From contig JAKIVD010000006.1 of the NCBI GenBank assembly GCA_021647205.1, positions 62,001-126,000 on the forward strand: 64,000 nucleotides of DNA. Direction: 5' to 3'. Positions within the stretch are counted from its first letter, which is position 1; every line of letters starts with the position of its first letter. Below, in pieces: positions 22,957 through 40,142 of this stretch. A model generated the notes under the pieces. The model saw only the letters and a program-made list of their open reading frames with translations, did no database searches and was not told the origin of the DNA. Both the position numbers and the translations under genes were made by a program. Origin of the DNA: Bacteroidales bacterium. GTDB lineage: Bacteria; Bacteroidota; Bacteroidia; Bacteroidales; F082.

Positions 22957-23025
22957 TGAATGTCTCTAACGAACTTAACTAAAATGGACTTTCTGCCGAA
23001 CCTCTACTGCCTTACCGGAAAACAG

Positions 23026-25092
23026 ATGAGAAATTGCCGTGCTTTTTTTTGCTTTGTTTTGATTATTATTTCATTCCGGGGACAGTCGGAAGGCACCAAA
23101 GAAATTATGCAAAACCCCGTTTACGACGGCAGGATTTTGCTCGACTCCGATTTCGGTGGGTTTGCCCTGTACAATTGTGACCCCAGAGACCGCTTGAACA
23201 TCCGGATTAACAAGCCGGGCGAAAAAATTCTTTTTGGCTTTGGAACTTCTTACAATTTTGATGCGCTCGAACAATATGTAGCCAATGATGTAAGCTACCG
23301 GATAATCGATCCTGACGGGGAGATTGTTGTCAACTCTGCCATGCAGGCTTTGTCGGGGCCCGGTTTTATCGGATATTATCAGCAAGCTGTCGCAGGCCCG
23401 AATATTTTTGATCCCCAGGGATACGACCCCCTGGTTGTAGTTTGCAATAAAACCGGGGATTACTTTGTTGAATTTGACCATCCGGATATCATTTACGGGG
23501 GGAGAAGGGAACTGAAATATTTTGACATAACGGTTGCCGGTACAGACAACAAAGCTGTTCCGGGGCGTGTCTGGTCCAAAGCATGGATGTTTTCCGTATC
23601 AACAAAAGGAGGCGATCCCTATGACAATCCCTTCTACGGGAAACTTTTTATCCTCACAGATGATGGCATCGTTACCTCGGTGGACTTCAACGGGATGAAA
23701 CCGTACGTTTTCACGCTTTCCGCTAACGGAACAGGAGTGCAAAACTCAGGGAACCCGGTGGCAGACCGGAAATCGGTCTTGTTCAAATCAACCTATCCCC
23801 AGTACAAAGTTTTCCTCAACGACCCTGACCAGGACGTGTTTCCATCAGGTTCTTTCGGGCTACTTACAGCCCCGACGCAGATTACCGGAACAGAACCGCC
23901 GTATTGCATTAATGTGAATACAAGCCAGGCAGGTGCTGTTGAGGTTCTGATAAACTTCAATGGGATTCCGGGTTACCAGGCCGGTACCCGCGATGTATTG
24001 ATCGCAAAAAATGTGGAAAGTGGCACATCCTGCATCGAATGGAATGGAAAAGACGGATTCGGCAAAGTAATTGAACAGTGCAGCAATCCCATCGGCTTTT
24101 ACATTACCTTTATCGGCGGGCTGACGCACATGCCCATTTATGATGTAGAAACAAATACCAACGGTTTTATCATCGAACTGGTCCGGCCGAAAAACGCCGA
24201 ATCGCACCTTGCCCTGTATTGGGACGACAGCAACATTCCGGGTTACTCAACACCGCCCTCCGAAGGATGCGACGGTACCCTGGGCTGCCATGAATTTGGT
24301 TATTTTTTTGGCGATGAACATACCATTAATACCTGGTGGTATTCAACGAGTAAAATAACAGACAGCCTGACACTTTTCAGCGTTGGCGTTTCACTTGACA
24401 GTGTGTTGGTGAAGGAGCAAAAATGCTCGAATGTACAAGATGGCCTTATTGAAGTTTTTATCGGTGGGGGAACTCCACCTTATACCTATTCCCTGGATGG
24501 CGACAACTTTCAACCTTCACCGGTTTTTCAAAAACTGGCCAAGGGCAACTACATCCTGACGGTACGCGACAAAAATAATTGTGAGAAGAAACAAGCCGTA
24601 AACGTGAAGCTGAGTACACTTATTTCTGCTGATTTTGAAGCGGAGACCGGTGATGTTTATAATCTTGTCGATTTTTTTTACCAGGGTGACGGTGCTAATT
24701 TTTATCAATGGGATTTTGGTGACGGTTTTGTTTCCGGAATCGAAAACCCATCTCACCAATATACTGTCGATTCGGTATACTATGTTCAATTGATCACCGG
24801 AAGCGGCCCTCCTGATTACTGTTCTGATTCAATGACCAAAATGATAGAAGTGTATCCCGAATTGCAAATTTATGCACCAACTGCCTTCAGCCCGAACAAC
24901 GATCAGCTAAATGATACTTTTAAATTATTCGGGGTTGGACTGTATGGTTTTCAGGTTTATATTTTTAGTTCGGGCGGTACACAAATCTTTTACTCTGACA
25001 ATAACATTCCTGGGACGGTAACTATCTTGCTGAAAAATGTAAACCAGGTGTTTATACCTACATTGTTATTGCCAAAGACTGGAAAGGGATGA
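23026..25092 (+). CDS. Secreted T9SS type B protein with PKD domain, C-terminus frameshifted
   Basis: A protein of 688 residues as it reads. The signal peptide is MRNCRAFFCFVLIIISFRG. A large beta-rich N-terminal region without a recognised family follows, then a SprB-like repeat (CSNVQDGLIEVFIGGGTPPYTYSLDG), a PKD-like domain (YQWDFGDGFVSGIENPSHQY) and the start of a gliding-type C-terminal sorting domain (APTAFSPNNDQLNDTFKLFG). After 25008 the frame is wrong. From 25011 another frame gives WDGNYLAEKCKPGVYTYIVI and then KDWKGMIKQKKGTLSLLR with a stop at 25130, the expected end of that domain. One base is therefore missing near 25009. As it stands, the protein would lack its export signal for T9SS. 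It could be a real mutation or a sequencing error. Confidence 0.8.
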   Translation: MRNCRAFFCFVLIIISFRGQSEGTKEIMQNPVYDGRILLDSDFGGFALYNCDPRDRLNIRINKPGEKILFGFGTSYNFDALEQYVANDVSYRIIDPDGEIVVNSAMQALSGPGFIGYYQQAVAGPNIFDPQGYDPLVVVCNKTGDYFVEFDHPDIIYGGRRELKYFDITVAGTDNKAVPGRVWSKAWMFSVSTKGGDPYDNPFYGKLFILTDDGIVTSVDFNGMKPYVFTLSANGTGVQNSGNPVADRKSVLFKSTYPQYKVFLNDPDQDVFPSGSFGLLTAPTQITGTEPPYCINVNTSQAGAVEVLINFNGIPGYQAGTRDVLIAKNVESGTSCIEWNGKDGFGKVIEQCSNPIGFYITFIGGLTHMPIYDVETNTNGFIIELVRPKNAESHLALYWDDSNIPGYSTPPSEGCDGTLGCHEFGYFFGDEHTINTWWYSTSKITDSLTLFSVGVSLDSVLVKEQKCSNVQDGLIEVFIGGGTPPYTYSLDGDNFQPSPVFQKLAKGNYILTVRDKNNCEKKQAVNVKLSTLISADFEAETGDVYNLVDFFYQGDGANFYQWDFGDGFVSGIENPSHQYTVDSVYYVQLITGSGPPDYCSDSMTKMIEVYPELQIYAPTAFSPNNDQLNDTFKLFGVGLYGFQVYIFSSGGTQIFYSDNNIPGTVTILLKNVNQVFIPTLLLPKTGKG

Positions 25093-27537: not shown

Positions 27538-29061
27538 ATGATGAATTTCGGCCATCAACTGCTAAACCGCTTACTGTTTACAACAGCATTGCTGATGTGT
27601 GGGCATTTTGCCCACGCCCAGTTCACCATCATGCCCAGCAGCTACATCACCATCAGGGAAGGCTCCACGCTCCGAATAGGAACAGACCTTTACATCAACA
27701 GCAACGCCACTGCTTCGGGATACCTGGTTGACCGGACCGTTGACGGTGATGTTGTAATTGCAGGGGACATTACCGTAGAAAGGTACATGAGCGCCAATTA
27801 CTGGCACAATACCTCTTCACCGGTGAGTACTGCCAATAGCAGCGTTTACCCCGGTACCGAGCTGGTATTTTATTACGATGAAACACTAATTATTAACGAC
27901 TGGATGTTTGGATGGGTTATGTACAGCGGGGCCTTGTCAGTGATGAAAGGCTACGATGTATATTTCGATCAAAACCCCGTAACTGTGTTGTACACGGCAA
28001 CAGGTACCCAAACCATCAATACCGGCTCCTTCAATTCGCCGGTTACAATAAGTTATTGGGACAACGGAGAAGTAGATCCGCACCGGGGCTGGAATTTACT
28101 TGGAAACCCCTATCCGTCCCCTGTTGACTGGCAGGTGAGTTCCGGTTGGGATAAATCAGATATTAACGATGCCAAATATATCTGGGACGGCCCCAACGAT
28201 AATTATACGATTTGGATTGGTGGGGGATCACCCATCGGCATCAATGGCGGAACGCGTTATATCCCTTCAAACCAGGGCTTTTGGGTTCAGGCTGTTCAAA
28301 ATGGCAGCGTACAGGTGACCAATTCTTCCCGTATTGGCGAAACACCTGCCACACCCGACTACTACAAAAACAAAACCATCGGTTACCCTGTATTGGATTT
28401 AATGGCTCATGCCAACGGGCTTACCGATGAATGTATGATTCGTTTTCTTGATGGGGCGTCTGAGGCATTCGACCTGAATTACGATGCCACAAAACTATTC
28501 AGCCAGGGGAACGAAGTCCCGCAAATAGCCACGATGTCAGAAAATATCAACCTTGCAATAAACTCACTGCCCGAGCTAAAAGATGAATTAATGGTCCCCT
28601 TAAGTTTTCAGTGCAAGAAGGCCGGGTATTACACAATCGGTTTAACAGACGTTACCAACCTTGATGCTTTTGTAAAAGTTTACCTGAAAGATGAATTGGA
28701 GCAAAAAACCATTGACCTGTCCGCTAATTTAAGCTACCGCTTCTATCATGACCCCATGAACAGGAAAAACAGGTTTAAAATCTATTTCAACCCTTCTGAG
28801 GATGTTATTAATAATATCGGCCCCGAAGATTATTTTTCAGTTTTTGCGAATCGGGGCGGCATCTCCATATTAAAAAATACTAACAAGTTACTCACAGGCC
28901 GCATTTGGGTTTATAATACATTGGGGCAGCCCGTTTATTCCACAGAATTAAGCAGTAACAGCGAAATGCTGTTAAAATTAATGCTTGCCTCTGGATACTA
29001 CTACGTAAGTATTATAACGCCCCAACAGATTAGCAACCATAAAATTTTTATTAGTAATTGA
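27538..29061 (+). CDS. Secreted T9SS type A cargo protein
   Basis: A protein of 507 residues with a signal peptide ending in FAHAQ (about 28). Domains: a beta-helical N-terminus (SSYITIREGSTLRIGTDLYI), a module typical of Bacteroidota surface proteins (VERYMSANYWHNTSSPV, then RGWNLLGNPYPSPVDW and YIPSNQGFWVQA), and a C-terminal T9SS type A domain (GRIWVYNTLGQPVYSTEL ... YYYVSIITPQQISNHKIFI). The C-terminal domain should direct it through the outer membrane and attach it to the cell surface. It shares the GNPYPS/QGFWVQ module with the large proteins at 44923-47199 and 48169-51513. It precedes the PapD-like chaperone gene. Confidence 0.88.
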   Translation: MMNFGHQLLNRLLFTTALLMCGHFAHAQFTIMPSSYITIREGSTLRIGTDLYINSNATASGYLVDRTVDGDVVIAGDITVERYMSANYWHNTSSPVSTANSSVYPGTELVFYYDETLIINDWMFGWVMYSGALSVMKGYDVYFDQNPVTVLYTATGTQTINTGSFNSPVTISYWDNGEVDPHRGWNLLGNPYPSPVDWQVSSGWDKSDINDAKYIWDGPNDNYTIWIGGGSPIGINGGTRYIPSNQGFWVQAVQNGSVQVTNSSRIGETPATPDYYKNKTIGYPVLDLMAHANGLTDECMIRFLDGASEAFDLNYDATKLFSQGNEVPQIATMSENINLAINSLPELKDELMVPLSFQCKKAGYYTIGLTDVTNLDAFVKVYLKDELEQKTIDLSANLSYRFYHDPMNRKNRFKIYFNPSEDVINNIGPEDYFSVFANRGGISILKNTNKLLTGRIWVYNTLGQPVYSTELSSNSEMLLKLMLASGYYYVSIITPQQISNHKIFISN

Positions 29062-29261: not shown

Positions 29262-30077
29262 ATGAAAACAACCAAACACTTATCAACATTCTTAGCATTA
29301 ATAGCTTTTTTGATTTCCGGTACCACATTGGTAGCGCAGGAACTTGAAGTATCACCAACACAGCTTTCGTTTAACGCAAACCCCGGTTCGTCGCAAACAA
29401 GGCAATTGTTTGTAAGAAACAAAGCGAAAACTGAGCAGTCCTTTATTTTTAATATTGGCGACTGGCTTCAGGATGAAAATGGGGAAGTGTCTTATTTTGA
29501 ACCCGGAACAACGGGCCGCTCCTGCGCTGACTGGATTACCGTCTCTCCTTCGCTGATTACTTTACAGCCTAACGAATCGGCCAATGTAAATGTAACCATG
29601 CTTGTCCCTAACGACGACGCATCAACAAAATGGGCTGTCATATTTGTAGAATCTGCCGTTGAGCGGACAGGTGCCAAGGCAATTGATAAAGCGATCAGCA
29701 TGGGCGTTCAAATTAGTGCCCGTATTGCGGTTTCCGTTTTCCAATCCCCGGAAAGCAATAATTTCTATAAGGGGACTATTGAAGGTTTAACCGAAAAAGT
29801 TGACAGCGAGAATAACCGTACTTATGAAACAATGGTTGTAAACCTGGGCGACAAGATTTTAAACTGCAAGGTTTATTTTACGGTTTCTAACCTGGCCACA
29901 GCAGAAGAATTTACTTCAACACCCATTGAATTTGCGCTACTTCCCGAATCAAACAAAAAAGTAGAATACACACTCGAAAAACCACTTGAGAAAGGAAAAT
30001 ACTCTGTGGCAGCTATTCTCGATTATGGAAATACTGATGAACTGGAGGGCATACAGCTCGACGTCGACATCAAGTAG
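29262..30077 (+). CDS. Periplasmic PapD-like pilus chaperone
   Basis: A protein of 271 residues with signal peptide to about 25 (GTTLVAQ). Two Ig-like domains follow. The first has ELEVSPTQLSFNANPGSSQT and ADWITVSPSLITLQPNESAN, which is the strand layout of PapD/FimC-type and DUF916-type domains, where the beta-sandwich caps an incomplete Ig subunit. The second runs from about 155 to the end and ends in ILDYGNTDELEGIQLDVDI. The critical Arg-Lys pair of classical chaperones is not obvious to me. Its neighbours are three related exported small proteins and an usher-like barrel, which strengthens the chaperone reading. The gene is followed after 14 bases by the MORN gene. A weak -7 candidate (TATTTTTG) lies at 29069-29076. 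Confidence 0.65.
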   Translation: MKTTKHLSTFLALIAFLISGTTLVAQELEVSPTQLSFNANPGSSQTRQLFVRNKAKTEQSFIFNIGDWLQDENGEVSYFEPGTTGRSCADWITVSPSLITLQPNESANVNVTMLVPNDDASTKWAVIFVESAVERTGAKAIDKAISMGVQISARIAVSVFQSPESNNFYKGTIEGLTEKVDSENNRTYETMVVNLGDKILNCKVYFTVSNLATAEEFTSTPIEFALLPESNKKVEYTLEKPLEKGKYSVAAILDYGNTDELEGIQLDVDIK

Positions 30078-30091
30078 AGGGTTTTTGATAT

Positions 30092-31210
30092 ATGAAAAAG
30101 CAAGCTGTATTGTTGTTATCCACCTTGTTTTTTTCCGGGTTTTCGTTCTCACAAACAAAGCAAGTTGTTGATACTGGTTACTACTACCAGGATTCCTCTT
30201 TCGTTTTAAAATCGATAGTTACCTACGAAGTAACAGGGGAAGGGGACACCTTAAAAAACGGGCCTGCCGTTTATTACTACGTAACCGGTAATGTTTTACA
30301 AAGAGGTGCTTACAAACACGGAAAGATCCATGGAACCTGGACAAGTTATTATGTTGACGGTACTGTTAAAAATGTCGGAAATTATGTAAACGACTCATTG
30401 AATGGAGAAGTCTCGTTGTACTACAAAACAGGCCGGCTTAACGAAACCAGGATTTACCGCAACAATTTGCTCAATGGTATTGTAAGCGGTTATTATCCGG
30501 ATGGAAATATCAGTTATCGAATAAATTATGTTGACAGCGCTCAGAATGGATTGTATGAAAAATACTACGAATCGGGAAAGTTAAAAGAAAAGACATCTAT
30601 TCACGGGCAGTATTTTTTTGGTGAATACAAATCGTATTATGAGAACGGACAAATTGAAAAAGAATACAACTATTCAGGATTTGAAATAAACGGACCCTAT
30701 AAAGTATATTACGATAACGGCAACCCCATGATAATTGCTTTCTACGAAAATAGCAAACCACAAGGACTGATGGAAATCTTTCATAAAAACGGTTGTTTAT
30801 ACGAAAGTGGCCAGTTGGACCATGGTGTAAGAAAAGGGGAGTGGATTACTTATTTTGACGATAGTACACGCTACATGCAAGGGCGCTACGTAAACGGGTT
30901 ACCAGAAGGAATGTGGAAAGTTTACCACAGCAACGGCGTACTGAAACAAGAAGGCATTTACAAAAAAGGAATTTCGGAAGGAAAGTGGAAATACTATTTT
31001 GACAATGGCCAGATACAAAAACAGGGGCTTTACAAAAACAATAAGGAACAAGGCCTCTGGTTGCATTATTATGAAGATGGACACATGAAACTTCAGTTGT
31101 ACTACAATATGGGCGCACTTGAGGGTGTTTGTACCGCATTCGACAAAGAAGGAAAAATTGTTGAACAGGTGGAGTACCTGAATAATGTCATGATAAAAAA
31201 AATTAAGTAA
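30092..31210 (+). CDS. Exported MORN-repeat protein (YwqK-like)
   Basis: A protein of 372 residues with a signal peptide ending near FSFSQ (20). From about 50 to 360 it consists of 12-13 repeats of about 23 residues with the pattern YY-x-G-x(3)-x-G-Y-x(3)-x-x-G-x-W (GAYKHGKIHGTWTSYYVDG and similar). These are MORN repeats, which make a flat beta-hairpin stack. Annotation pipelines often call such proteins 'YwqK antitoxin-like'; I see no toxin. It lies between the chaperone and the first subunit gene, so a role in scaffolding or sizing of the surface structure is possible, but this is inference. Confidence 0.8.
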   Translation: MKKQAVLLLSTLFFSGFSFSQTKQVVDTGYYYQDSSFVLKSIVTYEVTGEGDTLKNGPAVYYYVTGNVLQRGAYKHGKIHGTWTSYYVDGTVKNVGNYVNDSLNGEVSLYYKTGRLNETRIYRNNLLNGIVSGYYPDGNISYRINYVDSAQNGLYEKYYESGKLKEKTSIHGQYFFGEYKSYYENGQIEKEYNYSGFEINGPYKVYYDNGNPMIIAFYENSKPQGLMEIFHKNGCLYESGQLDHGVRKGEWITYFDDSTRYMQGRYVNGLPEGMWKVYHSNGVLKQEGIYKKGISEGKWKYYFDNGQIQKQGLYKNNKEQGLWLHYYEDGHMKLQLYYNMGALEGVCTAFDKEGKIVEQVEYLNNVMIKKIK

Positions 31211-31249
31211 ACAAAGTTGTGTTAATGCTTACTTCGGTAAATCCTGAAA

Positions 31250-31819
31250 ATGAAACATACACTATTTCTGGTCATTTTAGTTTTTGTTCTGGTAGTAAAA
31301 CCGCTGAACGGACAGGATATTCCCCCTCCCAACCCTTACATTAACATCAACATCATTTCTGGTAACGCCATTCAGTTTATTTTTAGCGATATAAACCAAT
31401 ACATTGACGGAATTTTAAATGGTGGCCAGTCAACTTTTATCAGGATAGGCTGCATTGCCGATTGGAAACTCCAGTTCCATACAGACCAGGCCATGTTTTA
31501 CGGACAAAACAACCCGGCACATACAATGGAACTTAATAATGTCGGGCTGGTCGTTGTTTCGACAGGGACAAACCTTGACGATGGGACAAATATTATTAAC
31601 TACGCCAAAACCCTGCCCCTGGCACTGCAAAGCACACCGGTTCTGCTGCTTACTAAAGGAAGCGGGAGCAACAAAGGTTATGGGTTGCGGAATGCATTTA
31701 CCCTGAATTGGGAAATGGGAACCCGAAGGGGAAACATGAACAGCCAGACCATGCTCGAACAGGCATTGTACCCGGATATATATAATTTGGACATCATTTT
31801 AACACTCTCATTCTATTGA
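31250..31819 (+). CDS. Exported small beta-protein, subunit-like (first of three)
   Basis: A protein of 189 residues with a signal peptide to about 22 (VVKPLNGQ). The mature chain is beta-rich without cysteine pairs. It aligns with the next two small proteins: an N-terminal stretch beginning ININIISGNAIQFIF, the central DWKLQFHTD motif followed by ELNNVGLVVVSTGTN, and the C-terminal FTLNWEMGTRRGNMNSQTM with an alternating end LDIILTLSFY. An alternating hydrophobic C-terminal strand is what donor-strand-exchanging subunits often have. There is no T9SS signal and no lipobox. I infer a minor subunit of a surface fibre. Confidence 0.65.
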   Translation: MKHTLFLVILVFVLVVKPLNGQDIPPPNPYININIISGNAIQFIFSDINQYIDGILNGGQSTFIRIGCIADWKLQFHTDQAMFYGQNNPAHTMELNNVGLVVVSTGTNLDDGTNIINYAKTLPLALQSTPVLLLTKGSGSNKGYGLRNAFTLNWEMGTRRGNMNSQTMLEQALYPDIYNLDIILTLSFY

Positions 31820-31892
31820 ACACAAAATCACGCATATAGGAATATTTTTAATGCAAAAATTTGCCAAAATGATTTTTTTTTAACATTGTTTT

Positions 31893-31922
31893 TTTGATAT
31901 CTCAATATTTTATATATATTTG
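31893..31922 (+). promoter_or_regulatory. Strong Bacteroidota promoter for the middle subunit gene
   Basis: TTTG (31893-31896) and TATATTTG (31915-31922) are 18 bases apart, close to the optimal spacing of -33 and -7 elements. It is the best promoter in the window. The predicted leader is about 115 nt and A-rich with many CAA repeats, which is typical of well-translated Bacteroidota genes. Confidence 0.7.
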
Positions 31923-32042
31923 TATCGTGTTGGAGCAGCACAAAACAACAAGCAAAAAGAAAAACAACAAAGATTAAGCAACAAACAAGCGACAAGTAAC
32001 AAGCAAAAACCCATATTTTTTTATTCACTAAATTTTTTTATT

Positions 32043-32636
32043 ATGAAAAAATTAATTATTATTTTATTGACTTTGTTTGCCATGCAAACAACAAGCGTAT
32101 TAGCTCAAACAGATATTGTCAACTTTGAGGCAATTCTGCTTGACGTAACAACAATTACAGTTACGGCCGGACAGGATATTTCCGTAACATTTGCAACCAG
32201 TGATGACTACAACAATGGTTTCGATGTGATTACTCCGGTTACCACTGTTGAGGTGGTTGCACTTCTCGACTGGGAGATGAGTATTTCAGCCCCTGATTTT
32301 GACAATGCCGATGGTGGCGGGGACATTATCCCGATCAACAATGTAGGTGTTTGGTGTGAGGCAACCGGTGTTCACCAGTTTGGTGTCGAATTGACCTGTC
32401 TTTACACTACAATTACCACCCCGGTGGGCCTGACCAATGCAGATCAGTTGTTAATTGGCAACGGAACCGGAAACAACGGTGATGCCGCTGACAACTCTTT
32501 TAACCTGAACTGGGAAATGGGATCAATGAACGGTTCGATGAACCCAAACAGCATGTTCTCTCAGGTTGCTGACGGGACAATCGGAAGTCTTGGTACTTAC
32601 AATACTGTTATTACATTGACCCTGACGACACTTTAG
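32043..32636 (+). CDS. Exported small beta-protein, likely major subunit (second of three)
   Basis: A protein of 197 residues with signal peptide to about 22 (QTTSVLAQ). The start is the ATG at 32043 directly after the A/T-rich leader. It shares with its neighbours an N-terminal ITVTAGQDISVTFATSDDYN, central LDWEMSISAP followed by IPINNVGVWCEATG, and C-terminal FNLNWEMGSMNGSMNPNSMF and VITLTLTTL. It is rich in Asp, Asn, Thr and low in Lys, as usual for surface subunits. It has its own strong promoter and a T-tailed terminator, so it can be made in large excess over the proteins of the surrounding operon, as expected for a major fibre subunit. The role is inference from order and architecture. 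Confidence 0.7.
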   Translation: MKKLIIILLTLFAMQTTSVLAQTDIVNFEAILLDVTTITVTAGQDISVTFATSDDYNNGFDVITPVTTVEVVALLDWEMSISAPDFDNADGGGDIIPINNVGVWCEATGVHQFGVELTCLYTTITTPVGLTNADQLLIGNGTGNNGDAADNSFNLNWEMGSMNGSMNPNSMFSQVADGTIGSLGTYNTVITLTLTTL

Positions 32637-32654
32637 TCTGTAATTTTCTTGTTT

Positions 32655-32692
32655 AAAAAAGGAAACATGGGTCAACCGTGTTTCCTTTTTTT
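32655..32692 (+). terminator. Intrinsic terminator after the middle subunit gene
   Basis: GGAAACA (32661-32667) pairs with TGTTTCC (32679-32685) around an 11-base loop; six A precede and seven T follow. It lies 19 bases after the stop. It may be partly bypassed to reach the usher-like gene, or the next gene may use its own element TACCTTTG (32707-32714). Confidence 0.75.
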
Positions 32693-32706
32693 GTTCAGGA
32701 TTGTGA

Positions 32707-32714
32707 TACCTTTG
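32707..32714 (+). promoter_or_regulatory. -7 promoter element for the third subunit and usher-like genes
   Basis: TACCTTTG fits TAnnTTTG exactly and lies 9 bases before the ATG at 32724, behind the terminator at 32655-32692. A TTTG at 32690-32693 is closer than ideal. It gives a very short leader. Confidence 0.45.
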
Positions 32715-32723
32715 CGTGCTATA

Positions 32724-33371
32724 ATGAAGTTTTCCCAAACAGCCCATAAAATCTTTACAGGTGTATTGTTTCTTCTTGCACCTTGTGTTTCTTTTTCGCA
32801 GGAAGACAGCAAAACACTGGATTTTGAATCGAACCTGCTTTCGGTGATTCAACTCAACATCGATCCGGATGTTCGGCTGGAGTTTGGGATAAGAGAGGTC
32901 AACGACAAACTCTACCAGGTTACAAAATACCCCGACGATGTTATTTTCAGTGTGGAATCTACCGAGGACTGGACGCTGTCAATTTCAGCAACAAGCGCTT
33001 ATTTCAAAGGGGTTCAGGATTCAAGCCTGACCATACCGGTCGATTTTGTGGGTTTAGTGGTAGAAAGTCATGGCAACAACTTTGACAATGGTAAGTTTTC
33101 TAATATTATCAATGCGACAAAAGATACCATCGTTGAATTATCGGAAAAAAAAACAATGTTGTTGACAAACGGGCGGCGCCATAACATTGGGGATGCGAAA
33201 GACAATTATTTTGTATTGCGATGGGTATTCCTTTACAGGGATGACCCAAAAAGAATGAGGGAATTCTATAATTTTAAAATGGCCAATGATTTATTTCGGG
33301 TTGGTGTCAGGTTAACATTAACAAAAAGTATAGACCCTACACAATCAGAGCCGCTCAATGTAATAAAGTAG
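32724..33371 (+). CDS. Exported small beta-protein, subunit-like (third of three)
   Basis: A protein of 215 residues with signal peptide ending CVSFSQ (about 24). I chose the ATG at 32724 because the reading upstream of it runs through the terminator. Shared features are the N-terminal SVIQLNIDPDVRLEF, central DWTLSISATSAYF followed by PVDFVGLVVESHG, and a C-terminal alternating strand VGVRLTLTK. It is more charged than the other two, and the 'NWEMG' motif is changed to LRWVFLY. It lies only 7 bases from the usher-like gene, so it may be the base or tip subunit made together with the assembly protein. Confidence 0.65.
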   Translation: MKFSQTAHKIFTGVLFLLAPCVSFSQEDSKTLDFESNLLSVIQLNIDPDVRLEFGIREVNDKLYQVTKYPDDVIFSVESTEDWTLSISATSAYFKGVQDSSLTIPVDFVGLVVESHGNNFDNGKFSNIINATKDTIVELSEKKTMLLTNGRRHNIGDAKDNYFVLRWVFLYRDDPKRMREFYNFKMANDLFRVGVRLTLTKSIDPTQSEPLNVIK

Positions 33372-33378
33372 CAACAGC

Positions 33379-36300
33379 ATGATTCAAAGAGCCATAAGAT
33401 TTCTTGTGATTGCTCTGTTATTGTTTGCTCATCAGGTTCTTTTTTCACAAAACCAGGATGGGAAAACAGCTGGGTCGGCTTTGGAAGCACATTTTATCAA
33501 ACCCGAATATACCCAGGAGGCCGGTATTTTAGGCTTCAATGTCATTGTTGTTTTCAACCCTTCACGGGTACCCGTAAAAATAAAACCCGAACTGGTTGTC
33601 CCCGAAGGATGGGCCATATTCAGTACAGCCATCACCCAAACTACTGTCCCGCCCAACGACAGTGTAATGATACCTTTCAGGATACGTATCCCCGGACAGG
33701 CAGATTCTGATGAAAAACACGAACTCTTACTGAATGTATTTTCGGCCTCAAACGAATTGCTCCTGCAAACTAAATGCTTGGTGCAACCCGTTAGTTATCA
33801 CAGTTGGCAATTGGTCATTCCGCAGAGGAGGGTTTACTTTTACCCCCGCCTGAAACTGGCCGAATTCGATGTGATTATAGAAAACAACGGAAACACCCAT
33901 GAACTGGTCCGCCTCGATGTTCAACCCGATTATAAAGTAAAAATTGGAAATGGCAGCGACTGGGAAACAGGCCAGCAGTACTACCTTGGCCCACAGCAGG
34001 ATACAACCCTTCATTTTCGTGTTTACTACACCAACCCGCAGGAACGGCTGTTCGACATCAGTAAAATACAGATAATCGCCATTACCGATAACAACCAGGA
34101 TGAAAAAACCGTGCTGATTGAAAAATATATCGACACTTATGATCCTTTTCACCTCAATTACTACCTGCCACACATGACCGAAGCAGGTTTAAGGATGAGC
34201 AGCACAAGTTATGATGTTACCCCATTTTTTAATGCCAGGGGAAAGCAACTGTTTAGCAGGAAAAGTTCGTTTGATTATTACTTCTCAAACTATAATGTAA
34301 ACGAATCGGAAAACTTTATCGCCAACAGCATTTACCGTTTCATTTACAATTGGAACACAATGAAAATAGGTGTCGGTGCCATCGGCTCAACCCTGGGACG
34401 AAACATCTACAGCCAGAATGCAATCATGGTTTCAAATATTTTTAAACTCAGCAAGACAAGTGATGTTGAAATATTTATCAGCCAGGACTTTGTTGACCCC
34501 ATCAGCAGTGTTGCCGGTGGGTACACCTTTACGAAAAAAGACCTGCGGCTATATGCAACTGTCGGCTACAACCGCGACAGGGTACGAATGGTGAATACAG
34601 GCTCTTTTTTATTCAGGACCAGCCAGATTCAATTGTTCAAGGGCCATTCTGTCAATGCCATTCTTTACGCATTGCGTGAAGATCATTCTTTTACCAAACC
34701 CTACACGCTTCAGGGCTACGCCTGGGATGTGAATTATTACGGGCGCATCGGACAAAAATTTACCTTTCAGTTGATCAATAATTTTGGCTCGCCCGACTTG
34801 CCCGGTTCAAGAATGGGCTTGTTAAAAATAGGGGCAAACATGAAGTTCATGCCCGTCAACCCAAAAAAGTACTTCACGGCTACTTATGTAAACATGTCCC
34901 GCGATTTTTACAATTATACCTTTCTTGGCGAAAAGCGCCGCAATGTTGTTTTGCACGATCAATACATGAACCTGCTGTATCATTCCGATGCCAAAAAAAA
35001 GAACCGCTGGTTTATCGGCCCGAGTATCGAGCTCTATCAATCCCTTACCCCTTTGTATTCAAACGACAGTGCGTACGCCGACTACAAAGTGCAAAAAGTT
35101 AAACTGGAATTTTACAGCTATTTGTGGAGCCATTTGAAATTCGATGTTAAAGCCGGCATCAGAAATATTTCGTATTCGGCAGACTATATAGAGATTGCCG
35201 AGCAAAAGTATGATTTGAATTTTATCGCCGACTACAACCTTAACGGTTACGGCATACGCCTCAGGTATGATTATGGCCCGATGATAAACAGCGGTTTGTA
35301 CCAGGCTGCAACCGAAATCGATTTCAACGCCCTCTCGCTGGCCCCGTATATTTCGAAATACTATTTTAAAAAGCGGTTGAATGTCCGCCTTTTTGCAAAC
35401 ATGATTTACCGCTTCGACCTGGATTATGCTTATGTCAATTTCATACCCAAAATTGAAACCTTTCTTGTCAGGGACTGGTATGCGGTTTTGGGGGGCAGTT
35501 ACACCTACAACCAGCGAAAAAATGAAGAGTTCGATTACAGTCACTACAATTACTACCTCGAGTTTTCAATAAAAAAGTACTGGGGGAAAACTGAAAGGAC
35601 CAAGCGGGGGAAGAAACTTCGCCGGCTTAAAGTTGTATTGTTCCAGGACGAAAATGGAAACGGCGAACAAGACCCGTGGGAAAACGGCGTGCCCTACGTC
35701 AAAACACGGCTGACCTTGATCACACCGGTAGAAGAAGATGAAGCCGCTTTCTTTCCTGTTGATATTACTCTTTTGTCCAACGAAAAAGGAATCGTTTTCT
35801 TCAAACAAATCCCCAGGGGGGTGTATGATATTTCGCTTAAATCGCTGAACGACCTGAAAGAATATTTTTATGTGGACAAGCTGAACGAAAGCATCAGCCT
35901 TTCAACAAACAGAACGGTATACATCCCCTTCCAAAAGGCAAGCCGGATTGAGGGGGAAATCTCTATGAGGCTCAATCAGTATTCTCAGGAAAATGGGGAA
36001 AACATGGACCTTGCCAATATTAAAATAACTGCCTACAACAAACTGGGGAACAGCTATTCCTCGTTTACTGCCAAAGACGGCAGCTTCGTTATTTTTGCTC
36101 CGGGCGAAAACACCTATCACCTGCGGATGAAGAATGTTTTTGGAAACAACTACGCCATCCTCCAAAACGATATTTCGGTGGCTGTTTCCGATACAACCGA
36201 AACTTTTGTGGTTTTTGATGTTGTGGAGCAAAACCGTAAGATTAACTTTAAGAAAACCCTGGCAGAAATTCCTGATAGCCTGAGGAACAAACCGCTTAAA

Positions 36301-36663
36301 ATTAAAGTGCTGCCCGGTAAGATTTACGAAAACGAAGCCGCCAGGGCAGCCCTCCGTGATTCAGTCCCCGAATTCGACCTGAATGTTTACCCCGTTGAAG
36401 AATATCCAATGACTGACGGCCTGTTTTATGTAGTTGTAAAGAAAACGGAAATTAAATACGATGCCGTTGCCTACATCAGGATAGTTAAAGAAAACGGGCT
36501 TAAATCGTTTTTGGGATTTGATGCTGAAAAAATGACATATTACGTTTTCACGATGCGCACAAGTAAAAAATCAGAAACACAGCAGGAAATAAAACGGGTA
36601 GAGTTATTGGGGATAGAAGATGCCCGGATACTGAAGTTCAAAGCAGGCAAGCCCAGCAAATAG
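33379..36663 (+). CDS. Large outer-membrane usher-like beta-barrel protein
   Basis: A protein of 1094 residues with signal peptide to about 23. Residues about 35-250 form two Ig-like domains (NEW3-like, with NTHELVRLDVQPDYK). Residues about 255-735 alternate hydrophobic and polar residues with many aromatic ends (YYFSNYN, FRYDLDYAY-type stretches), as in an outer-membrane barrel of 20-26 strands. From about 745 comes LKVVLFQDENGNGEQDPWENG, an SdrD/Cna-B-like calcium-loop domain as in C-terminal usher domains, then a carboxypeptidase-regulatory-like domain (ASRIEGEISM onward). The last 90 residues (LFYVVVKKTE to DARILKF) look like a SPOR fold. I infer an usher that assembles the three small subunits with the PapD-like chaperone. 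It differs from classical FimD ushers in having N-terminal Ig domains; its family is unverified. Confidence 0.55.
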   Translation: MIQRAIRFLVIALLLFAHQVLFSQNQDGKTAGSALEAHFIKPEYTQEAGILGFNVIVVFNPSRVPVKIKPELVVPEGWAIFSTAITQTTVPPNDSVMIPFRIRIPGQADSDEKHELLLNVFSASNELLLQTKCLVQPVSYHSWQLVIPQRRVYFYPRLKLAEFDVIIENNGNTHELVRLDVQPDYKVKIGNGSDWETGQQYYLGPQQDTTLHFRVYYTNPQERLFDISKIQIIAITDNNQDEKTVLIEKYIDTYDPFHLNYYLPHMTEAGLRMSSTSYDVTPFFNARGKQLFSRKSSFDYYFSNYNVNESENFIANSIYRFIYNWNTMKIGVGAIGSTLGRNIYSQNAIMVSNIFKLSKTSDVEIFISQDFVDPISSVAGGYTFTKKDLRLYATVGYNRDRVRMVNTGSFLFRTSQIQLFKGHSVNAILYALREDHSFTKPYTLQGYAWDVNYYGRIGQKFTFQLINNFGSPDLPGSRMGLLKIGANMKFMPVNPKKYFTATYVNMSRDFYNYTFLGEKRRNVVLHDQYMNLLYHSDAKKKNRWFIGPSIELYQSLTPLYSNDSAYADYKVQKVKLEFYSYLWSHLKFDVKAGIRNISYSADYIEIAEQKYDLNFIADYNLNGYGIRLRYDYGPMINSGLYQAATEIDFNALSLAPYISKYYFKKRLNVRLFANMIYRFDLDYAYVNFIPKIETFLVRDWYAVLGGSYTYNQRKNEEFDYSHYNYYLEFSIKKYWGKTERTKRGKKLRRLKVVLFQDENGNGEQDPWENGVPYVKTRLTLITPVEEDEAAFFPVDITLLSNEKGIVFFKQIPRGVYDISLKSLNDLKEYFYVDKLNESISLSTNRTVYIPFQKASRIEGEISMRLNQYSQENGENMDLANIKITAYNKLGNSYSSFTAKDGSFVIFAPGENTYHLRMKNVFGNNYAILQNDISVAVSDTTETFVVFDVVEQNRKINFKKTLAEIPDSLRNKPLKIKVLPGKIYENEAARAALRDSVPEFDLNVYPVEEYPMTDGLFYVVVKKTEIKYDAVAYIRIVKENGLKSFLGFDAEKMTYYVFTMRTSKKSETQQEIKRVELLGIEDARILKFKAGKPSK

Positions 36664-36674
36664 GGCGCTCCTGT

Positions 36675-39600
36675 TTATTTCACCACGGTTACCGTACCCC
36701 TGTAAAGGACCGGGCGCATTAAATAGTCTGTTCCGGTAATCTTGTACATGTAAGAACCGGGCGGAACAGGATTGCCGGCCACGTTCGTGCCATCCCACTG
36801 GTTCTCGAAATTATGCGTACTCCAGACTTTAGCTCCCCAGCGGTCGTAAATGTAAAGATGGTAATCAGTAATGGGTGTGCCTTTTATTTCAAACACATCA
36901 TTTATACCGTCGCCGTTGGGTGTAAATGCATTGGGGATAAACATCATTACCTCTTCGGTAAGTGCTACCATGGCCATGGTCGTGTCCCAACATCCGTTAA
37001 TGGTTTCTACCCGCAGCGAAATATAATAATTTCCGGCCTGTTCGTAAGTGTGCGTCGGGTTTTCTTCCCCGCTGGTGTTGCCATCCCCAAAATCCCAAAG
37101 GAACTCATACCAGGCTGAGTCGGCCAGGCTCAGGTTAGTGAAATCAATATCCGGGAGGTCCATGGTAGTAATCCAGGGGTCGGCCTCAAAACCGGCCTCG
37201 GGATTGGGGTTGACCTGGATCAGGTTTGGTTTGGATATCTCGGCAAAACAACGCTCGCTATTACTCACTTTCAGGTCAACCGAAAACAGTCCGGCCGTGC
37301 TGTATTCGTGACTGGGGTTTTGCAGGCTTGAAGTGCTGCCGTCTCCTAAATTCCATTCATAAGTTGCCCCGGGAAAAATATCCTGCGAAAGATCGGTGAA
37401 CTGAACCTCAACAGGCAAACAACCCTCCAGAACATCGGCTGTAAAGTCAGGCGAAGGCAGGGGGTTCACCAATACCGTCATGGTGGTGTCATCTTCACAA
37501 ATGTATTGTTGAACATGCAGGTAAACCGTGTAAGTATTCGGATTGGTGTACGCATGCACCGGATTGGGCAGCGTACTCGTTGCGCCGTCGCCAAAGTCCC
37601 AGTCAAAATCTTTACCCGTTGCATCGTCGCCATAAGTAAACTGAATATCTTCACCCGTACAGGCTTCCTCATCAGGCTTAAAACTAAATGCGGGTGAAGG
37701 TTGCGGGAACACTTCGTAAGAGGCCGAAACCTGCTTGTCGATGCAATAATCGGAAGAGGCCGTCAAGGTATAAGTGTAAACCCCGGGAACCGTCTCGTTG
37801 CGCATGATGCTCTGCGTGGTTTCACCACCGGGTGTCCACAGCCAAACGTTGGCCTGGTTGGCAGTAAAGGTAACCGCTTCTCCCGGGCAAACTTCTGCAA
37901 CGGATGGCGAAACGGTAATCTCGGGGAGAAAGTGATCAACAAAAACAACAAGCGAATCGTATTGTACTTCGTTACATTTGTCAAGAATGTAAAGAATATA
38001 CTGGGTGGTATCAGGGGGCGAGACAACAATACTGGGCCCGGTGCCGACTTCATTTGGCGGTGAGACGGTGTTCTTATACCACACATAATTGTTCGGGTCG
38101 TCACCCAGCGAAGGCGTAAATGTAATCAGCATGACAGAGTCGCCTTTGCAAATGTATTTGTCGTCGCCAATATCCAGTTTACCGGTCTGGTCAACAGTAA
38201 AATTACCGCTGGCCTCGTTGCCGCAAACATCGGTAACATTGAACTCTGCCTGCCAAACCTGCTCAATATAATTGTTGTCGTAATTAATTGTAAAAGGATT
38301 TCCGTTTCCGAGCAAGGTTGACGGCACATCCGTAACATTGTACCAGGTACATAAATTGGAAACAAAGCCGTAACCGGGAAAATCATTGGCCGGCATCCAC
38401 ATGGCTTCCACTTGTTGCGACATGCCCGGCGCACAGAAAGACAGTGGCGGGATTTCCTGCAATTCAATGGGTTTGTTGATAATTTTAACAGTTCCTTCCG
38501 AGCTGTTCAAACAACCGTCGGAAACAATTACCGAAACAAAATCGGGTGAATTGTTTACCGTATGGCTGTATGTCTCAACAGGCGGAACGGGGTTGCTTGG
38601 CCAGGAATAGACCACCGGTAAAACCCCGCCCTGTGTTTCAGCTACAATGTTCAGGTCGATGGTTTCTTTGCAAAAGGCTTCGTATTGTTTAAAGCCCGGG
38701 GCAGGGTCGAAGGTAAAAGTAATGGGGTCGTTGTGGCGGAGGTCGAAAGAAATCTTACCGCTGAAACTCCCCCCGCCAATGGGAGGGACCGGCCCGTCGC
38801 AGGGATCGGTTTTGTAAACAAATTTCACCTGGACCGGACTGTCAGAACCAATGTCCCTTGCCGATACCCTGACCGTACGAACAGAATCGCCGCCCGTAAA
38901 CCAAATGGTGTCGTTGGTGATCAGCTCATCATTCATGGAACCTTCATAACGCACATCAATACTGTCACGATAAACAGAACTTTCGATACGGAACGGAATG
39001 GGGTATTCCATCAGTGCGAGCAAAGGTTTCTCAAGCGTAAAGGTAACCAGCAGGTCGGCACAGTTCTCAATAACCTGTTGTCCAAATTCCCCTGTCCCGC
39101 CTGATGTGTTCTCGAAGGCAGAATCGACAGTCCAGCGTGGGTTGTATTCGCCCCCGGTAAAACTGCCACCTTCTACAAACACAGCCGAGTTAATGGAAAA
39201 ACCCGTGTATTCTTCGTAGCCGGGTTGTGGTGGTGTATAATAAAAATCGGCAATGGCAATTTTTATTTTTTGTTTCAGGCAAGGTGTTACCTGTTTTCGG
39301 ATTATCAAGCTCCCGATCGGACTGTTCACCTTGGTCATCGCGTCGAACTCGGTGCCGAGGTCAACATCATCTTCCGTGGGGTTTTGCCGGTAAAGCGCGG
39401 CGTTTTTATTGGCATTGATTTCATAAACCGAAACCCATTGTGGCGGGTCTCCCGGTGGGGGCGGGTCTGGCGGGTAAATCTGCGCCAGGTTTGTGGTGTC
39501 GGTGTCGGGGCGGTTGGTAATAAATATCCCCATCATATCAAACATCTGATCGGATGGCCCCGCAAAACCGGTCAGGTCAACGTCGGGCTTGTCGGGGCCG

Positions 39601-40142
39601 AACTTTGGGGAAGGATATTCTTCGGATGCGAAAATGTATGTCAATTGTATCAAATTGCTGTAGGGCGTGTACCAAAACTCCAGCACCGCTGCATCGCCCA
39701 AAGTATCGAAAGGGATATTGAAAATATCCATGTTTTTATAAATATCGCGGTACAGCCGCCAGATAGAGGAATCGCCCGAAGGCGGGCCTTCGTAATTATT
39801 GAATTTGTGCGTGGCGGCACCAGTCTGGTTATTGCCGGTGGCCTGGTCAATTTTCCCCGTGGAAAGAATCAGTCCCGAATCGACGCCGATACCTGCCAGC
39901 CCCCCCCTCCAGAATTTGCCAAAAGCAGCAGCATTTCCTTTGTATTTTATGCTTGCCGTATCGAACACACCGCCGCCACCATGCAAAACATTAAGCACCA
40001 GATCACGTACCTGGTCGCCAACACCCCCCGGAACATCGGGGTCGAGCGGCGTTACAAAAATCGACGGATTGCTCACCTGTGCCAGCGTTAACTGCGTGAA
40101 TAACAAGAATATCACAAACAGAGGGAAACGATTTGTTTTCAT
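36675..40142 (-). CDS. Secreted T9SS type B protein with choice-of-anchor L and PKD domains
   Basis: A protein of 1155 residues with signal peptide to about 21. Residues about 30-330 form a choice-of-anchor L domain (LNVLHGGGGVFDTASIKYKG, GIGVDSGLILSTGKIDQATG, IFASEEYPSPKFG). A middle region of Ig-like repeats follows, then at least three PKD domains with the motif DWDFGDGAT, EWNLGDGST and LWDFGDGNT. It ends in a gliding-type C-terminal domain (FIPNAFTPNGDGINDVFEIK, IYDRWGAKVWST, YMYKITGTDY) that exports it by T9SS and links it to the surface. It may act as an adhesin. It converges on the usher-like gene, with 11 bases between the two stops. Confidence 0.92.
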   Translation of the reverse strand: MKTNRFPLFVIFLLFTQLTLAQVSNPSIFVTPLDPDVPGGVGDQVRDLVLNVLHGGGGVFDTASIKYKGNAAAFGKFWRGGLAGIGVDSGLILSTGKIDQATGNNQTGAATHKFNNYEGPPSGDSSIWRLYRDIYKNMDIFNIPFDTLGDAAVLEFWYTPYSNLIQLTYIFASEEYPSPKFGPDKPDVDLTGFAGPSDQMFDMMGIFITNRPDTDTTNLAQIYPPDPPPPGDPPQWVSVYEINANKNAALYRQNPTEDDVDLGTEFDAMTKVNSPIGSLIIRKQVTPCLKQKIKIAIADFYYTPPQPGYEEYTGFSINSAVFVEGGSFTGGEYNPRWTVDSAFENTSGGTGEFGQQVIENCADLLVTFTLEKPLLALMEYPIPFRIESSVYRDSIDVRYEGSMNDELITNDTIWFTGGDSVRTVRVSARDIGSDSPVQVKFVYKTDPCDGPVPPIGGGSFSGKISFDLRHNDPITFTFDPAPGFKQYEAFCKETIDLNIVAETQGGVLPVVYSWPSNPVPPVETYSHTVNNSPDFVSVIVSDGCLNSSEGTVKIINKPIELQEIPPLSFCAPGMSQQVEAMWMPANDFPGYGFVSNLCTWYNVTDVPSTLLGNGNPFTINYDNNYIEQVWQAEFNVTDVCGNEASGNFTVDQTGKLDIGDDKYICKGDSVMLITFTPSLGDDPNNYVWYKNTVSPPNEVGTGPSIVVSPPDTTQYILYILDKCNEVQYDSLVVFVDHFLPEITVSPSVAEVCPGEAVTFTANQANVWLWTPGGETTQSIMRNETVPGVYTYTLTASSDYCIDKQVSASYEVFPQPSPAFSFKPDEEACTGEDIQFTYGDDATGKDFDWDFGDGATSTLPNPVHAYTNPNTYTVYLHVQQYICEDDTTMTVLVNPLPSPDFTADVLEGCLPVEVQFTDLSQDIFPGATYEWNLGDGSTSSLQNPSHEYSTAGLFSVDLKVSNSERCFAEISKPNLIQVNPNPEAGFEADPWITTMDLPDIDFTNLSLADSAWYEFLWDFGDGNTSGEENPTHTYEQAGNYYISLRVETINGCWDTTMAMVALTEEVMMFIPNAFTPNGDGINDVFEIKGTPITDYHLYIYDRWGAKVWSTHNFENQWDGTNVAGNPVPPGSYMYKITGTDYLMRPVLYRGTVTVVK

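Follow-up and report, generated by a model that had tools for sequence, protein, structure and literature searches.

A Bacteroidales gene cluster with a PapD-type chaperone, pilin-like subunits and a candidate outer-membrane platform points to a chaperone-usher-like pilus system related to the TLP-1 fibre

We analysed a window of 64,000 nucleotides from the 3.5-Mb genome of a Bacteroidota organism (Bacteroidales bacterium, GenBank assembly GCA_021647205.1, contig JAKIVD010000006.1, positions 62,001 to 126,000 of the forward strand), in which six open reading frames follow one another on the + strand between 29262 and 36663. They encode a chaperone-like protein (CHAP), a MORN_2-repeat protein, three pilin-like subunits (S1, S2 and S3) and a large outer-membrane protein (USH), Table 1. 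A sequence-only reading of this DNA had described six consecutive genes on one strand for a PapD-like periplasmic protein, a MORN-repeat protein, three related exported beta-proteins and a 1094-residue barrel protein, and had taken them for an independent chaperone-usher-like assembly system. All six genes were recovered as described, and the locus and its relatives probably encode donor-strand pili that are assembled by a PapD-superfamily chaperone together with an analogue of the usher.

Table 1. Features of the locus. Coordinates are positions in the 64,000-nucleotide window, + strand unless stated; aa, amino acids.
Feature	Position	Strand	Basis or remark
CHAP: exported two-domain PapD-superfamily chaperone, 271 aa	29262..30077	+	Sec signal ending AQ; weak PapD_N/PapD_C; profile matches E. 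coli chaperones and WxLIP
CHAP residues 147-160, candidate G1 donor strand	29700..29741	+	alignment of 42 chaperones; putative role
MORN_2-repeat exported protein, 372 aa	30092..31210	+	Pfam MORN_2 E 7e-38; conserved place
S1: pilin-like subunit without N-terminal donor strand, candidate tip, 189 aa	31250..31819	+	QDIPPPNP start, nothing preceding first strand
Bacteroidota-type promoter motif TTTG-N18-TANNTTTG upstream of S2	31893..31922	+	also in two same-genus relatives; weak
S2: pilin-like with N-terminal donor strand, candidate shaft subunit, 197 aa	32043..32636 (ATG)	+	AlphaFold2 model; best folds TLP-1 and chaperone-usher pilins
S2 residues 23-35, free N-terminal extension, candidate donor strand	32109..32147	+	unstructured in model; alternating hydrophobics as in TLP-1; putative role
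S3: pilin-like with donor strand and C-terminal tail, candidate accessory or base subunit, 215 aa	32724..33371 (ATG)	+	putative role
USH: candidate outer-membrane assembly platform, 1094 aa	33379..36663	+	AlphaFold2, VIA, Pfam of relatives, gene order
USH: two N-terminal Ig-like domains, residues 36-250	33484..34128	+	AlphaFold2; NPCBM_assoc/FixG_C matches
USH: barrel of about 26 strands, residues 265-735, no inserted plug domain	34171..35583	+	AlphaFold2, VIA
USH: C-terminal beta-sandwich domains, SdrD_B / carboxypeptidase-regulatory type, residues 750-950	35626..36228	+	AlphaFold2, Pfam
USH: SPOR-type peptidoglycan-binding domain, residues 1016-1086	36424..36636	+	secondary-structure order; SPOR/OmpA in relatives
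B3: secreted, type IX sorting tail, directly 5' of CHAP in family	27538..29061	+	membership in system uncertain
Two-domain pilin-like proteins (relatives)	L077 8653-9684, L078 8270-9298, L080 7217-8236, L081 11167-12600, L082 11976-13349, L084 3834-5267		

Searched as a single sequence, CHAP gave Pfam matches to PapD_N and PapD_C that were weak but correctly placed, and phmmer against the PDB returned nothing useful. Across 24 members of its family Pfam found PapD_N in 13 and WxLIP in 18, the window's CHAP lying below the WxLIP cut-off. Comparison of a CHAP profile with the ten PapD-like chaperones of E. coli K-12 by hhalign gave a probability of 95.7 and an E-value of 1e-8, collinear across both domains. 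The same profile scored 3e-5 with its own pilins, probably through common signal peptides, and the PapD comparison was therefore redone on the mature parts with decoys: the E-value was 1.4e-6, against 0.24 for the reversed profile and 0.04 for the best of 40 column shuffles. The closest relative of solved structure in the PDB is a WxLIP of Enterococcus faecium (EfmWxLIP1; profile E-value 4e-7, positions 38-265), and the WxL sandwich is predicted to be completed by a strand that WxLIP inserts (PMC10599100). In the alignment of 42 chaperones the G1-like segment of CHAP shows alternating hydrophobic residues (V149, I151, A153, I155, V157, V159). By these profile comparisons CHAP is a member of the PapD superfamily, in line with the two-domain PapD-like protein first read from the sequence.

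The three subunits resemble one another (about 25-35% identity, with E-values as low as about 1e-18 when S1-type are compared with S2-type proteins), as expected of the related beta-proteins described earlier. The AlphaFold2 model of S2 (predicted local distance difference test, pLDDT, 92.5) has a pilin fold in which residues 23-35 are without secondary structure. In VIA structural alignments of this model TLP-1b ranked first (Z 10.8) and TLP-1a second (10.3), and 39 of the 48 other rows were chaperone-usher pilins at Z of about 6, a value that is weak by itself, so that the weight lies in the identity of the proteins listed: they include CfaB/CfaE, CsuA/B, CupE, PapA, PapK, PapH, FimA, FimG, FimI and the FimH pilin domain. 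The Foldseek result for S2 agrees with that of VIA. The incomplete Ig folds implied for the small proteins by the sequence-only reading thus have a counterpart in the predicted chaperone-usher pilin fold of S2 and its free N-terminal strand. An extension with alternating hydrophobic residues occurs at the N terminus of S2 and S3 and is missing from S1, which begins QDIPPPNP in all aligned family members; subunits with and without the donor strand co-occur in the loci. A tip subunit needs no donor strand, as is established for FimH, and because S1 has none it is, by analogy with FimH, a candidate tip subunit. DUF4402, a family that was also considered, had no match among the subunits, and hhalign of the pilins with their E. 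coli counterparts matched signal peptides only. Relatives within the class encode proteins of 339-477 aa with a pilin-domain-like C-terminal part and an extra N-terminal domain, a FimH-like two-domain layout.

The promoter motif in Table 1 lies 150 base pairs upstream of S2, with a similar position in both same-genus relatives. It is absent at the matching place in ten more distant loci, and the number of occurrences across the whole window is at chance level. The motif might fit a separate expression of S2 as the shaft subunit.

For USH, AlphaFold2 gave a model with a pLDDT of 83.2 and a predicted template modelling score of 0.54, and because of the latter value the relative placement of the domains is unsure. 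The model contains the two Ig-like domains, the barrel and the C-terminal beta-sandwiches of Table 1, and the last domain has the beta-alpha-beta-beta-alpha-beta order of a SPOR-type end. Among 30 USH relatives, Pfam detected SdrD_B in 25, carboxypeptidase-regulatory domains in 16, SPOR in 5 and OmpA in 4; an OmpA domain replaces SPOR at the end of USH in loci L040-L043. AlphaFold2 and Pfam agree with the N-terminal Ig domains, barrel and SdrD-type C-terminal domains that had been listed from the sequence, a list from which the SPOR domain had been overlooked. The predicted large outer-membrane barrel has no TonB-receptor plug, and the reading of USH as a TonB receptor was dropped. An MtrB-like function was likewise rejected, the resemblance being one of barrel size only, with nothing nearby that points to electron transfer. 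A single-sequence phmmer search of the PDB with USH returned nothing useful.

The subunit profile also matched the TLP-1 sequence in the PDB, with an E-value of 6e-10. TLP-1a and TLP-1b (PDB 9ikj, 9ikk), solved by cryo-EM, are what we take to be the pond-water fibres of the CryoSeek study, TLP presumably standing for a pond in Beijing, and the CryoSeek authors reportedly described donor-strand exchange in TLP-1 fibres. According to a review, the pond fibres could not be identified conclusively (PMC12967142). Using as query the 88 N-terminal residues of TLP-1b that could be read in an alignment, we searched 395 genomes of the class and found homologues in 30, with identities of up to 59%. Eighteen loci were then picked by the TLP match alone; in 15 of these both CHAP and USH lie within about 7 kb of the TLP homologue, two are cut by contig ends, and in one (L212) the homologue stands alone. 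The usual operon has four genes, in the order CHAP, TLP homologue (about 260 aa), a second subunit (about 210 aa) and USH. When the loci were compared, the N-terminal strand (NVTITMDLQPILQLNM or similar) was found on the TLP homologue and was absent from the second subunit. Judged by these homologues, this type of locus is likely to be the genomic home of the TLP-1 fibre. The homologue without nearby chaperone or usher genes lies at 7557-8348 of L212, and the same genome has a complete locus (L211).

The order B3-CHAP-MORN-S1-S2-S3-USH is identical in every locus of the window's family on a sufficiently long contig, and because it is repeated in all of these the arrangement is not due to chance. 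Within the family, identities are 61-82% for CHAP and 33-72% for USH. Further out, pilins, CHAP and a USH of 910-1340 aa are clustered in relatives from the class and the phylum; CHAP and USH were read as neighbours in at least 20 Bacteroidota families, with pilins recurring beside them, and in an even sample of the phylum USH was detected at E<=1e-10 in 13 of 395 genomes, with CHAP adjoining in 13 of 13. Together with the TLP loci, these clusters bear out the conserved gene order that the sequence-only reading had named as a check. In other families of the order (L040-L044) pilin-like genes precede a USH of 996-1191 aa, and L044 is the sole one of these with a chaperone gene adjoining the pilins. 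Apart from the window's family, L044 alone has the MORN_2 gene at the locus. A genome scan with a single USH sequence did not find the relatives, an alignment of USH proteins (A1) was too diverse to yield patterns, and the many OmpA proteins matched by the broad USH profile from A1 were dropped as C-terminus-only matches.

Homologies, predicted folds, gene order, donor-strand-like termini and the sequence relation to the TLP-1 fibre were computed; we infer the transfer of strands, the export through USH, the topology and the role of each subunit. The Sec pathway would bring S1-S3 into the periplasm as incomplete Ig folds, and the G1 strand of CHAP would fill the groove of each subunit. The CHAP-subunit complexes would be delivered to USH, whose N-terminal Ig domains would be periplasmic and whose barrel of about 26 strands would form the pore. 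There an N-terminal strand from another subunit would take the place of the chaperone strand and the fibre would leave the cell, with S1 at the tip, S2 as the shaft and S3 as an accessory or base subunit, while the SPOR (or OmpA) domain of USH would fasten the platform to peptidoglycan.

Several observations weigh against such an assembly pathway. PF00577 is absent from the genome scan and from the 30 USH relatives, hhalign of USH with seven E. coli ushers gave a probability of 0.4 and matched nothing but signal peptides, and the predicted barrel has no plug domain, the gaps between its strands being at most about 20 residues. In VIA alignments the barrel resembles large barrels generally (MtrB Z 18.7, PapC 14.6, LptD 14.5, TonB receptors about 14), and because MtrB, LptD and TonB receptors match too, the barrel fold alone is not proof of an usher. 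As to the chaperone, the R8/K112 pair of PapD is present in 0 of 12 chaperones of the window's family (class and phylum relatives have R8 in 10 of 14 and K112 in 4 of 14). Loci L040-L043, examined in their neighbourhood only, have pilins and a USH with an OmpA-type end and no adjoining chaperone gene. Since it has neither a PF00577 match nor a profile relation to ushers, USH is, on sequence criteria, not a member of the usher family, and the relation to FimD/PapC entertained in the sequence-only reading was not detectable. Its cluster position, its size and the kind of partners it has nevertheless suggest, by analogy, that USH works in an usher-like manner.

USH could instead be an anchor or other outer-membrane component of a donor-strand fibre that uses CHAP, with the subunits exported otherwise, for example by the type IX system. 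Its lack of relation to known ushers and its peptidoglycan-binding ends would suit an anchor, and the type IX tail of B3, encoded upstream, would suit such a route. However, S1-S3 have no type IX sorting domain (no Por_Secre_tail or CHU_C match), B3 is confined to the window's family, and USH is the only large barrel retained with CHAP and pilins in every branch, and we consider this explanation unlikely. CHAP might also be, as WxLIP is with WxL, a lasting component of a complex bound to the wall or the surface. WxLIP is the nearest solved relative and 18 of 24 members match its peptidoglycan-binding domain model, but CHAP has no transmembrane end, 47 subunits gave no WxL match in Pfam and none in the PDB, and a large barrel and a family of fibre-forming subunits are among its partners, all of which makes this quite improbable. 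We give practically no credence to the idea that the locus is a version of type V (FimA/Mfa1) pili. These occur in the same phylum, and donor strands have been proposed for them too (PMC5789003), but the subunits matched no FimA/Mfa family in Pfam, the Sec signals of S1-S3 end in AQ, SQ or GQ with no lipobox cysteine at the signal end, the S2 model shows a different fold, and P. gingivalis, the model organism for type V pili, has no described chaperones or ushers (PMC5789003).

For the chaperone-usher-like pathway, then, the earlier reading is supported as regards the mode of assembly, whereas "independent" is tenable for the usher alone, because CHAP belongs to the PapD superfamily. The system would therefore be a diverged branch, with its usher replaced or changed beyond recognition. 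We somewhat favour the broader proposal that Bacteroidota have their own phylum-wide pilus class, combining a PapD/WxLIP-type chaperone with a peptidoglycan-tied platform of separate origin from the FimD/PapC ushers, and that TLP-1 is one of its products. No published description of the system was found in the literature searched, whose coverage left out preprints and most subscription papers, and an earlier description is possible. If the interpretation is true, Bacteroidota would have a dedicated chaperone-usher-type pilus pathway, and TLP-1, a structure solved before its source was identified, would have both a likely place in genomes and the machinery to assemble it. A sequence link would connect PapD chaperones with the WxL interacting proteins of Gram-positive bacteria, which bears on the evolution of donor-strand assembly, and the four-gene TLP-type operon is small enough for direct testing.

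Other features of the neighbourhood and of the relatives were also recorded. Two exported proteins, B2 and B3, precede CHAP, a position that is retained in relatives. The MORN_2 protein has a sub-threshold NCBIfam match to a Leptospira adhesin family, and the locus is flanked, at 22960-25092 and 36675-40142 (- strand), by large exported proteins that have PKD domains as well as type IX sorting tails. Six relatives (L033, L035-L039) have two extra genes 5' of S2 inside the operon; in L036 (6620-9127) one of the pair codes for a sensor kinase that contains a receiver domain and the other for a response regulator of the NarL type, which suggests local control of the fibre. At L167-L169, more distant CHAP matches lie beside four small exported proteins and a protein of 1003-1240 aa outside the USH profile, perhaps a further branch of the system.

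Compared with the proteobacterial chaperone-usher systems (Fim, Pap and the archaic Csu/CupE), the locus shares a PapD-superfamily chaperone, a pilin fold with an N-terminal extension, an extension-less subunit as the likely tip, and clustering of these genes with that of a large outer-membrane barrel. It differs in that USH falls outside PF00577, starts with a pair of Ig domains, lacks a plug, has other C-terminal domains and ends in a peptidoglycan-binding domain, and in that the window's chaperone is missing the R8/K112 pair. About 26 barrel strands are predicted for USH, and an usher barrel has about 24. With the Gram-positive WxL/WxLIP clusters it shares a chaperone related to WxLIP (profile 4e-7), for which strand completion is predicted (PMC10599100), whereas the subunits here have no WxL domain, CHAP has no membrane anchor and an outer-membrane platform is present. 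Most of the described Bacteroidota fimbriae are type V pili, for which helper proteins are not known (PMC5789003); these too are Bacteroidota surface fibres with proposed strand donation, but they are made from protease-processed lipoprotein precursors of unrelated subunit families, and a chaperone or usher is not described for them. The TLP-1 subunits are longer (236-237 aa) and share only about 13% identity with S2 across the fold, yet they are homologous to the subunits here (E 6e-10, Z 10.8), the N-terminal donor strand included, and the nearest TLP homologues occupy the four-gene form of the locus.

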